From the NCBI GenBank assembly GCA_024363285.1, contig AP024710.1:2264001-2328000 (forward strand): a DNA stretch of 64,000 nt. The letters run 5' to 3'. The first letter of the stretch is position 1. Each line of letters begins with the position of its first letter. The stretch comes from Leptolinea sp. HRD-7 (GTDB lineage: Bacteria; Chloroflexota; Anaerolineae; Anaerolineales; Anaerolineaceae). The position numbers and the translations under genes were made by a program. Positions 51,196 to 54,262 of this stretch are shown here, piece by piece. The notes under the pieces were generated by a model. It did no database searches, was not told the DNA's origin, and worked only from the letters and a program-made list of their open reading frames with translations.

Positions 51196-53652
51196 TTATC
51201 CAACCACGTTGACCAACCGGCCGGGGACGTAAATCACCTGTTTGGGTTCCCGCCCATCCAGCGCGCGTTTAACGGATTCGTTCGCCAGCGCGGCAGCTTT
51301 TGCTTCGGCTTCTGTAACAGACACAGGCACGATCAGACGGTCACGAACTTTACCATTGACCTGCAAAACCAGAGTGATGTTTTCATCAGCCGCGGCGGCT
51401 TCGTCAACCTTAGGCCAATCCTGTTTATGGATGGAATAGCCTTTGCCCAGTTTACTCCAAAGTTCTTCAGAGATATGCGGCGCGACAGGAGCCAGCATAC
51501 GCAGATAAATATCCACCGCTTCATCCCAGGCTTTGGATGGACCTGGATTTTCCTGGCGAAATTTCTGCATATCATTTAACAATTCCATCAAACCGGAGAC
51601 AATGGTATTAAATTCAAAGTTCTCGAAATCGCGGGTGACAGAACGCAGAGTCTGATGCAGTTTGCGACGGAGATTCTTCTCCGCTTCAGGTGAAGGGCTT
51701 TTGCCGGTAGAAGGTTCAAGGATGATCGCCCACACCCGGCGCAGCCAGCGTACGGTACCATCAATACCGGTCTTGTTCCACGGCGCTCCCAGGTCCCAGC
51801 GAGCAAAGAACATGAGGTACGCGCGAACGGAATCGGAGCCGTAGGCCTTTACCAGATTATCCGGAGCGACCACGTTACCGCGGCTCTTGCTCATCTTCTC
51901 GGAATCTTCACCCAGAACGATGCCTTGATTGCGCAGGGTTAGCATAGGTTCAGAACCTTTGGCAATACCCATATCACGCAGAGCTTTCTGGAAAAACCGG
52001 GTGTAGATCAGGTGCATGGTGGCATGTTCGATACCGCCGGTATAGACATCAACGGGTGCCCAGTAGTCATATTCCTTAGGATCAAATGGTCCCTTATCAT
52101 AATCAGGTGACAGATAACGCAGGTGATACCAGGAGGAACACATAAATGTATCCATGGTATCTGTCTCACGTTCCGCCGGACCGCCGCAATTTGGGCAGGT
52201 AGTCTTCTTCCAGGTGGGGTGAAGTTTGAGCGGACTTTCACCGGTCGGTTTCCATTCCACATCATCTGGCAATAGAACGGGCAATTGATCATCTGGAACA
52301 GGTAGTACACCGCATTTTTCGCAGAACACCATGGGAATGGGTGCGCCCCAGTAACGCTGACGTGAGATCAACCAGTCTCGAATGCGGTAATTTGTAGTGG
52401 CATGACCGGCATTTTTATCTTCCAGGTATTTAATGATTCGTTCCATTGCCTGGTTTTCAGGTGTGCCTGTCAATTCGCCGGAGTTAACCATACGGCCTTT
52501 AGCCGGAACGGCCGCTTCCATTGTTGCCCCATCCATATCAGGAGCGCCGTCTGGTTGAATAACAACTTTAATGGGCAGGTTGAATTTTCGGGCAAATTCA
52601 AAGTCGCGCTGGTCATGTGCCGGTACGGCCATAATGGCGCCGGTACCATACGTCATCAAAACATAATCGGCAATCCAAACAGGAATTTTCTCGTTGTTCA
52701 CTGGATTGATGGCATACCCGCCGGTGAAGACACCGGTCTTTTCTTTATCGGCTGCTTCGCGTTGGATATCGGATTGGCGAAGGGCTTCCGCCTGGTAGGC
52801 TTCCACCTGGGATTTCTGCTCAGGTGAAGTCAGTTTGGCCACCAGGGGATGTTCCGGCGCCAGAACCATAAATGTGGCGCCCCACAGGGTATCAGGGCGG
52901 GTGGTGAAGACTTCCAGCGGATCGCCCTGTTCGGTTCGGAAGGTAACAGACGCGCCGGTGGATTTACCGATCCAATTTGTCTGCAAGGTTTTTACGCGTT
53001 CCGGCCAGTCGATGGTACTGAAATCGAGTAATTCTTCAGCGTAGGCGGTAATTTTAAAGAACCACTGATTCAGATCTTTCTTGATAACCGGAGTGCCGCA
53101 GCGTTCGCAATGCCGGTCGTCACCCCAGACCTGCTCGCGTGCCAGGGTAGTATTGCAGGTGGGGCACCAGTCTACCGGTGAGAACTTGCGGTAGGCCAGT
53201 CCGTGTTTATAGAGTTGGGTGAAGAACCACTGTGACCATTTGTAGTATTTGGGGTCAGCGGAAATAGCTTCGCGGCGCCAGTCAAACATACCGCCCATGC
53301 TTTTAAGCTGGCCACGCATGCGCTCAATATTGGCATACGTCCATGTTTTGGGGTGGATATTCTTTTTTATCGCGGCATTTTCAGCCGGTAAGCCAAATGC
53401 GTCAAACCCCATGGGGAAAAGTACATTGAAACCGCGCATGCGCATGAACCGCGCGCGGGCATCAGCGGGCGTCATGGCATACCAGTGGCCGATATGCAGG
53501 TCTCCGGAAGGATAAGGCAGCATGGTCAACGCGTAGTGTTTGGGTTTGGATGTGTCTATATCAGAATGATATAGACCGTCATCTTCCCATTTTTTTTGCC
53601 AGCGCGGTTCGATCTCGCCGGGTTCGTATGTAGGGATTGAAGCCTGACTCAT
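51196..53652 (-). CDS. leuS: Leucyl-tRNA synthetase
   Basis: 818 residues from the ATG at 53652, which has GGGAG 6 bases upstream; another ATG at 53658 is 2 codons earlier. Class I synthetase with HIGHWYAMTPADA (HIGH motif), the CP1 editing domain with TTRPDTLWGATFMVLAPEHPL, paired-cysteine zinc-like segments (CPTCNTT, CERCG), KMSKSRGN and the C-terminal anticodon-binding and LeuS-specific parts. It charges tRNA-Leu. Expression is controlled by the T-box leader just upstream, and the gene ends at a strong terminator. Confidence 0.97.
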   Translation of the reverse strand: MSQASIPTYEPGEIEPRWQKKWEDDGLYHSDIDTSKPKHYALTMLPYPSGDLHIGHWYAMTPADARARFMRMRGFNVLFPMGFDAFGLPAENAAIKKNIHPKTWTYANIERMRGQLKSMGGMFDWRREAISADPKYYKWSQWFFTQLYKHGLAYRKFSPVDWCPTCNTTLAREQVWGDDRHCERCGTPVIKKDLNQWFFKITAYAEELLDFSTIDWPERVKTLQTNWIGKSTGASVTFRTEQGDPLEVFTTRPDTLWGATFMVLAPEHPLVAKLTSPEQKSQVEAYQAEALRQSDIQREAADKEKTGVFTGGYAINPVNNEKIPVWIADYVLMTYGTGAIMAVPAHDQRDFEFARKFNLPIKVVIQPDGAPDMDGATMEAAVPAKGRMVNSGELTGTPENQAMERIIKYLEDKNAGHATTNYRIRDWLISRQRYWGAPIPMVFCEKCGVLPVPDDQLPVLLPDDVEWKPTGESPLKLHPTWKKTTCPNCGGPAERETDTMDTFMCSSWYHLRYLSPDYDKGPFDPKEYDYWAPVDVYTGGIEHATMHLIYTRFFQKALRDMGIAKGSEPMLTLRNQGIVLGEDSEKMSKSRGNVVAPDNLVKAYGSDSVRAYLMFFARWDLGAPWNKTGIDGTVRWLRRVWAIILEPSTGKSPSPEAEKNLRRKLHQTLRSVTRDFENFEFNTIVSGLMELLNDMQKFRQENPGPSKAWDEAVDIYLRMLAPVAPHISEELWSKLGKGYSIHKQDWPKVDEAAAADENITLVLQVNGKVRDRLIVPVSVTEAEAKAAALANESVKRALDGREPKQVIYVPGRLVNVVG

Positions 53653-53678
53653 AATCATCTCCCGATAGTAGGTTAAAT

Positions 53679-53711
53679 AAAAAAGTCCTCGCCATCAGGG
53701 GCGAAGGGACT
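53679..53711 (-). terminator. T-box regulated terminator
   Basis: AGTCC/GGACT and CGCC/GGCG arms form the stem (53711-53684), followed by a T-run of six on the - strand. It competes with the antiterminator formed by the T-box sequence at 53730-53716. Confidence 0.85.
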
Positions 53712-53913
53712 TACTCCGTGGTACCACCCTGCTTGCCCGGTAAACCGGACCGCTTTGGGCGCTGTAACGGGCGAACCCGCCGCTGGCTGAATTTCTTCAC
53801 CGCGGCCGCGTACCATTTCGGGTACGACGGGCGAGTTCGGTCTTCGCGCTCCGTAGCGCCTGCCGGACTCACACCTGATGCCGGCTCTCTGACGGATGAC
53901 GTACTACTCCCGT
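53679..53913 (-). promoter_or_regulatory. Leucine-specific T-box leader of leuS
   Basis: Read on the - strand. The bottom of stem I pairs ACGGG (53913-53909) with CCCGT (53831-53827). The AGTA loop motif follows the first arm, and the specifier CTC followed by G (53835-53832) sits right before the second, so the codon is Leu CUC. AGAGAGCCGG and a matching CCGGC give the upper stem. The T-box AGGGTGGTACCACGG is at 53730-53716; its TGGT pairs with the ACCA end of an uncharged tRNA with discriminator A, as in tRNA-Leu. A terminator ends the leader. It starts only 10 bases after the tRNA-Ala 3' end. Confidence 0.92.
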
Positions 53914-53923
53914 TTTATGTGTG

Positions 53924-53996
53924 TGGACCCAGAGAGATTCGAACTCTCGGCCTTCTCAATGCCATTGAGACGCGCTCCCAACTGCGCTATGGGCCC
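53924..53996 (-). tRNA. tRNA-Ala (anticodon GGC)
   Basis: Cloverleaf on the - strand: acceptor GGGCCCA/TGGGTCC (one G-T pair), D-stem GCGC/GCGC, anticodon stem TCTCA/TGAGA with loop ATGGCAT (GGC, reads GCC), T-arm GAGAG-TTCGAAT-CTCTC, discriminator A. CCA is not encoded. It lies 37 bases after the other tRNA-Ala and 10 bases before the T-box leader. Confidence 0.94.
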
Positions 53997-54033
53997 ATTC
54001 AATTGTTAATCTCTGTTGTCGATCCCGTTCCAG

Positions 54034-54106
54034 TGGACCTGGAGGGATTCGAACCCTCGGCCTCTTCAGTGCGATTGAAGCGCGCTCCCAACTGCGCTAC
54101 AGGCCC
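54034..54106 (-). tRNA. tRNA-Ala (anticodon CGC)
   Basis: Cloverleaf on the - strand: acceptor GGGCCTG/CAGGTCC, D-stem GCGC/GCGC, anticodon stem CTTCA/TGAAG with loop ATCGCAC (CGC, reads GCG), T-arm GAGGG-TTCGAAT-CCCTC, discriminator A. CCA is not encoded. It is very like the next tRNA-Ala in the D-arm, so they are paralogues. Confidence 0.94.
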
Positions 54107-54123
54107 GTTACCAGAGTGATTGC

Positions 54124-54152
54124 ATTTTACTTGAGGGGTAGGGTCTTGTCAA
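54124..54152 (-). promoter_or_regulatory. Promoter of the tRNA-Ala pair and leuS
   Basis: On the - strand: TTGACA (54152-54147), a 17-base spacer and TAAAAT (54129-54124). A consensus -35 and near-consensus -10, 17 bases before the first tRNA. It probably drives both tRNAs, the T-box and leuS, since no other promoter is evident before leuS. Confidence 0.8.
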
Positions 54153-54218: not shown

Positions 54219-54262
54219 AAAAAGGACCTGTTCAAATTGTCCTTAATGAACAGTTCCTTTTT
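54219..54262. terminator. Two-way terminator hairpin with no gene to end
   Basis: A 16-base stem with one mismatch (54219-54234 against 54247-54262), 12-base loop, A-run left and T-run right. Neither neighbour points at it: the tRNAs run leftward away from it and the propeller gene runs rightward away. A rival stem AAGGAC/GTCCTT (54222-54227 with 54239-54244) shares bases with it. Confidence 0.75.

Follow-up and report, generated by a model that had tools for sequence, protein, structure and literature searches.

Two tRNA-Ala genes, a leucine T-box leader and the leucyl-tRNA synthetase gene leuS follow one another on a single strand in Leptolinea sp. HRD-7, and only a few bases separate the second tRNA from the leader. 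This locus raises the question of how many transcripts it produces, and of what relation the tRNAs have to a riboswitch that itself senses tRNA. We have analyzed the unit within its window (the whole stretch of 64,000 nucleotides, positions 2,264,001 to 2,328,000 of contig AP024710.1) and in related genomes. The order of parts proposed in the initial annotation is real: ARAGORN and RF00005 recover both tRNAs, RF00230 the T-box and TIGR00396 the leuS gene, and the promoter matches 11 of 12 consensus bases (Table 1).

Table 1. Coordinates of the tRNA-Ala, T-box and leuS unit in the window, listed in the order of transcription.
Feature	Position	Strand	Evidence
Terminator-like hairpin AAGGAaCTGTTC / GAACAGgTCCTT followed by a T-run, upstream of promoter	54222..54259	-	Read in sequence
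Promoter TTGACA-17-TAAAAT, 11/12 consensus, 17 nt ahead of first tRNA	54124..54152	-	Promoter scan
tRNA-Ala(CGC), CCA not encoded	54033..54106	-	ARAGORN; RF00005, 66.4 bits
tRNA-Ala(GGC), CCA not encoded	53923..53996	-	ARAGORN; RF00005, 64.7 bits
10-base gap, ARAGORN end of tRNA-Ala(GGC) to first stem I base	53913..53922	-	Sequence
Leucine T-box leader, whole RF00230 match	53694..53918	-	Relaxed RF00230 scan; covariation
T-box stem I, motifs AGAGAG and GGTGTGA	53827..53913	-	RF00230 match; covariation alignment
Specifier codon CTC (Leu), context GAA-CTC-G	53833..53835	-	GAACTCG conserved in relatives
T-box stem III, ordinary short loop	53735..53750	-	Covarying pairs
T-box core GGGTGGTACCACGG (antiterminator, UGGU bulge)	53716..53729	-	RF00230 match
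Intrinsic terminator, hairpin and T6; sole one from promoter to leuS	53679..53708	-	Terminator scan; covarying stem
leuS, leucine--tRNA ligase	51196..53658	-	TIGR00396, 995.7 bits (cut-off 548.4)

The hairpin upstream of the promoter (54222..54259) has a loop that exceeds the limit of the terminator scan and was identified by reading the sequence; it probably insulates the unit against upstream transcription, and the segment 54259-54215, where T-runs flank a hairpin on both strands, could be a bidirectional terminator. At the other end, the GGGAG ribosome-binding site of leuS is, as read in the sequence, better suited to the second ATG (53652). The proposed spacing of 10 bases between tRNA-Ala(GGC) and stem I is confirmed when counted from the ARAGORN end of the tRNA (53922-53913). 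Bacterial tRNAs without an encoded CCA are matured by an endonucleolytic 3' cut by RNase Z that is followed by CCA addition, and this route is expected for both tRNAs here since neither encodes CCA. The short gap is thus expected to be a region of RNase Z cleavage into which no promoter fits.

The evidence that the leader is a leucine T-box extends beyond the family match. RF00230 covers it over model positions 1-219 with 56.7 bits (E = 1.6e-11). Since Rfam's gathering score is 93, a default scan misses this element, and a relaxed scan was needed to find it. Given this low score an independent check of the fold was made by aligning 32 leaders that share the window layout; in these, 90.7% of the cells at 65 consensus pairs are standard pairs and 39 of the 65 pairs exhibit two-sided compensatory changes, including pairs of stem I, stem III and the terminator. 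The CTC specifier that had been proposed (53835-53833) lies within a conserved GAACTCG, agrees with the downstream gene and has its reader, tRNA-Leu(GAG), encoded in the same genome. The core GGGTGGTACCACGG with its UGGU and the competing terminator are both present. Leptolinea sp. HRD-7 has seven T-boxes, three of which score below the gathering cut-off, and default annotation consequently under-counts T-boxes here. The pairing with tRNAs is specific to the leuS T-box, as no tRNA gene occurs within 1.5 kb of the other six.

To place this unit among its relatives, we surveyed 202 leuS loci together with their upstream DNA and located the tRNAs, the specifier and the T-box core in each. A tRNA-Ala(GGC) gene is located upstream of a full T-box in about 80 of these loci, nearly all from Anaerolineales, and in 71 of them it is itself preceded by tRNA-Ala(CGC). 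This recurrence, along with a T-box fold that retains compensatory changes, places the order of parts far beyond chance. It also means that the arrangement, which had been thought uncommon, is the usual layout in Anaerolineales. Other layouts were observed as well. In eight loci tRNA-Ala(GGC) is directly upstream of leuS, at a distance of 13-200 nt in some of them, with no recognisable T-box, so in some lineages the link between tRNA and leuS outlives or predates the riboswitch. Two further loci have an ilvE-like gene (a branched-chain aminotransferase, named from sequence) between the leucine T-box and leuS.

Relatives with the window layout also address the number of transcripts. A TTGACA-16/18-TANAAT promoter with 10-12 of 12 consensus bases precedes tRNA-Ala(CGC) in 68 of 71 loci, mostly at a distance of 15-23 nt, and the best match at this position averages 10.8 of 12 as compared to 6.5 in shuffled sequence. 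The putative single promoter ahead of the tRNAs is therefore a conserved element. No promoter signal was found between tRNA-Ala(GGC) and stem I in the 51 loci that could be scored (mean 6.27 of 12 versus 6.11 in shuffles), in agreement with the suggestion that the leader lacks a promoter of its own. This gap varies from 8 to 142 nt among relatives; it has its minimum of 8 nt in four close relatives and exceeds 100 nt in some others, which leaves room in the latter for a hidden non-consensus promoter. The scan also found no terminator-like site ahead of the T-box terminator in the window unit, and thus none between the second tRNA and the T-box, where the initial annotation had proposed looking for one. 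A TTGACG-16/17-TANAAT-like site with 9-10 of 12 consensus bases is present before tRNA-Ala(GGC) in 12 of the 71 relatives, so a second start is possible in these; no site of this type is present in the window. Sites of the form TTGACG-16/17-TANAAT between both tRNA-Ala genes were noted individually in nine loci. Taken together, the conserved promoter before tRNA-Ala(CGC), the lack of a promoter signal in the gap and the absence of an earlier terminator-like site support, at the level of comparative sequence, one transcript from tRNA-Ala(CGC) through leuS as by far the simplest reading.

We consider it very likely that one constitutive promoter serves tRNA-Ala(CGC), tRNA-Ala(GGC), the leucine T-box and leuS, with the tRNAs excised and leuS gated. 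From the arrangement of these parts we infer a common precursor, its processing into tRNAs and a response to leucine. According to this model, the promoter would drive both tRNA-Ala genes, a transcriptional T-box and leuS, and RNase P and RNase Z would free the two tRNAs from every transcript irrespective of the decision that the T-box takes. The cut behind tRNA-Ala(GGC) would leave a leader with its 5' end about 10 nt ahead of stem I. Uncharged tRNA-Leu(GAG) would be sensed via the CTC specifier and the UGGU bulge, such that polymerase would proceed into leuS only when leucyl-tRNA is short. When leucyl-tRNA is sufficient, the T-box terminator would stop the RNA and the product would be a plain tRNA-Ala precursor. 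The idea that leuS alone is gated while the tRNAs are always made fits the location of both tRNAs upstream of the sole terminator. What does not hold is the notion that these tRNAs feed the riboswitch, since both are alanine tRNAs while the specifier reads tRNA-Leu(GAG); they are not ligands of the leuS T-box.

Outside of Anaerolineales we observed a second topology in which tRNA-Ala(GGC) is nested within the T-box, between the specifier domain and the antiterminator. The order in these loci is tRNA-Ala(CGC) if present, stem I, stem II, a CCGTTA motif, tRNA-Ala(GGC) and the GGGTGGTACC core, with the tRNA mostly located in the loop of stem III. The window is not of this type, as its tRNA-Ala(GGC) lies upstream of stem I and its stem III loop is short. 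Examples of the nested form include L197 (positions 1256-1563), L203, L162, L205 and L254 as well as the MAG contigs JAJRTP010000043.1, JAAYYY010000293.1, PABI01000058.1 and JAACFF010000090.1. Two loci initially taken as nested owing to chance GAACT matches were rejected, and both have the window layout. ARAGORN reports tRNA-Ala(GGC) in all 60 nested loci examined (56 distinct genomes), and RF00230 spans model positions 1-219 across the nested tRNA in 20 of 20 loci tested, with E values from 2.9e-23 to 0.002 and a score above gathering in 3 of them. An equivalent promoter, again with 10-12 of 12 consensus bases, precedes tRNA-Ala(CGC) in nested relatives. Among 400 Chloroflexota genomes searched by pattern, 52 gave the nested order, with one match to a reversed-pattern control; three of the 52 were discarded as apparent chance matches. 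The pattern search and the survey together place the nested form in about 70 genomes with 25 Chloroflexota family labels. Misassembly is not its cause given that it occurs on long single contigs, for example of 5.6 Mb and 11.3 Mb.

Several observations indicate that the nested tRNA is mostly enclosed by stem III. In L197 the RF00230 model places the tRNA in the stem III loop, as GGAGCAU, tRNA, AUGCUC and then AA. A position-anchored test on 50 non-redundant nested loci, with the expectation taken from swapped partners, found complementary six-base arms flanking the tRNA in 24 of 49 loci (4.7 expected) or 25 of 50 (4.0 expected), and these arms co-vary. A free duplex-energy test, in which the true partner was best in only 11 of 50 loci, was set aside in favor of the anchored one because long arms rich in G+C pair indiscriminately. 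When 22 nested loci, picked mostly for their flanking arms, were folded, 21 formed an enclosing helix and 14 the acceptor stem; this demonstrates compatibility without testing the enclosure independently. In a minority of nested loci an enclosing stem III is not evident. The arm pair is usually preceded by an RRRNG motif, as has been described for T-box stem III, a stem that is also reported to aid sensing of the tRNA acceptor end (PMC7778990).

With tRNA-Ala(GGC) located inside stem III, the RNA of a nested leader must contain a tRNA precursor. This nested copy is most likely a working gene. In most nested genomes tested the tRNA-Ala(GGC) pattern has a single match, at the nested site, and a second copy is clear in two genomes (G173 and G444); these copy counts are approximate since the pattern missed two genomes. 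The window copy is likewise the sole match to the pattern in the genome of Leptolinea sp. HRD-7. If the nested gene is the only source of this tRNA, then transcription and cleavage of the leader have to go on continuously. The switch could still decide before cleavage, as the last ~100 bases would take seconds to transcribe and tRNA processing probably takes longer. We think it likely that across much of Chloroflexota the leuS T-box acts as the obligatory sole precursor of tRNA-Ala(GGC), cut in two by tRNA maturation after the decision, and that the window layout descends from it by relocation of the tRNA upstream of stem I.

To assess the direction of this change, N-terminal regions of 85 LeuS sequences were placed on a tree. 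Nested loci are scattered over all of it, and many of its forks outside one family, f64, are open. Within f64, a genus with a window-like layout (G229 and G175) falls inside a nested clade (100/99 support) and its sister G489 is nested, so in this family a change from the nested to the upstream layout is simpler than the reverse. The tree points to the nested form as the older one and to the window layout as derived, and the same polarity is likely in Anaerolineales.

The same data bear on other explanations of the conserved order. The window unit might consist of two touching units, with the tRNA pair ending by polymerase release or processing and a leuS promoter overlapping tRNA-Ala(GGC) or the 10-base gap. 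Such an arrangement would draw on the fact that tRNA genes can harbour promoter-like sequence and on the second promoter-like site of 12 of 71 relatives; however, the 51 scorable gaps carry no promoter signal, no terminator-like site separates tRNA from T-box in the window, and in nested relatives two units are impossible with the tRNA inside the leader. We regard this explanation as unlikely. It is quite improbable that the co-transcribed tRNA-Ala regulates, for instance by an ACCA end that competes in cis for UGGU, whereby leuS would sense alanine tRNA or tRNA processing too. The discriminator A suits UGGU and several nested loci encode CCA close upstream of the antiterminator, but the window unit and many relatives do not encode CCA, and for this reason the idea was set aside. 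Moreover, nearly all loci have a Leu specifier, and where the RNA chain runs on past the tRNA 3' end, that end should clash in the same manner as an aminoacyl group does. We give the least credence to a degenerate T-box with constitutive leuS, the order being a relic of a nested ancestor: a score of 56.7 bits, below gathering, would be in keeping with decay, yet across 32 relatives the specifier, the UGGU core and the terminator persist along with compensatory changes, and the genome encodes the cognate tRNA-Leu(GAG).

A single transcript with a gated leuS has several implications. A terminated T-box leader is usually regarded as a discarded regulatory RNA. Here the regulatory leader seems to double as an alanine tRNA precursor; as the terminated product would be a tRNA precursor, a constitutive stable-RNA gene and a regulated mRNA would share both a promoter and a conditional terminator. 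In nested relatives the riboswitch would have to decide ahead of the RNase P cut, and these leaders thereby provide a natural test of T-box speed against tRNA processing as well as a natural example of a tRNA serving as a module of RNA structure. T-box annotation at default thresholds overlooks such leaders.

Every part of this system is known, and provisionally it is the combination that is new: we found no published account of a Chloroflexota T-box with a tRNA gene ahead of it or within it, in a literature coverage that was partial. T-boxes have been described in Dehalococcoides, also of the Chloroflexi, for ileS, trpE and a trpB-like gene, which share phylum and element class with the present case, while that account does not include a tRNA-Ala-bearing leuS leader (PMC2494555). 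The leuS leaders of RF00230 share with the window a stem I with CTC, stem II, stem III, a UGGU antiterminator, a terminator and leuS downstream. They differ from it in that two non-cognate tRNA genes would precede the window leader on one transcript, and from its relatives in that stem III is filled there by a tRNA gene. The tRNA genes that precede tufB in E. coli are co-transcribed with the mRNA; one promoter likewise serves tRNAs and a translation gene, and tRNA processing creates the mRNA 5' end, but there the tRNAs and the mRNA are not separated by a terminator-bearing riboswitch. The T-box leader of B. subtilis thrS is also processed. Post-transcriptional leader cleavage that yields a shortened mRNA is common to both systems, whereas the cleavage proposed here would be carried out by tRNA-maturation enzymes and would free a functional tRNA.
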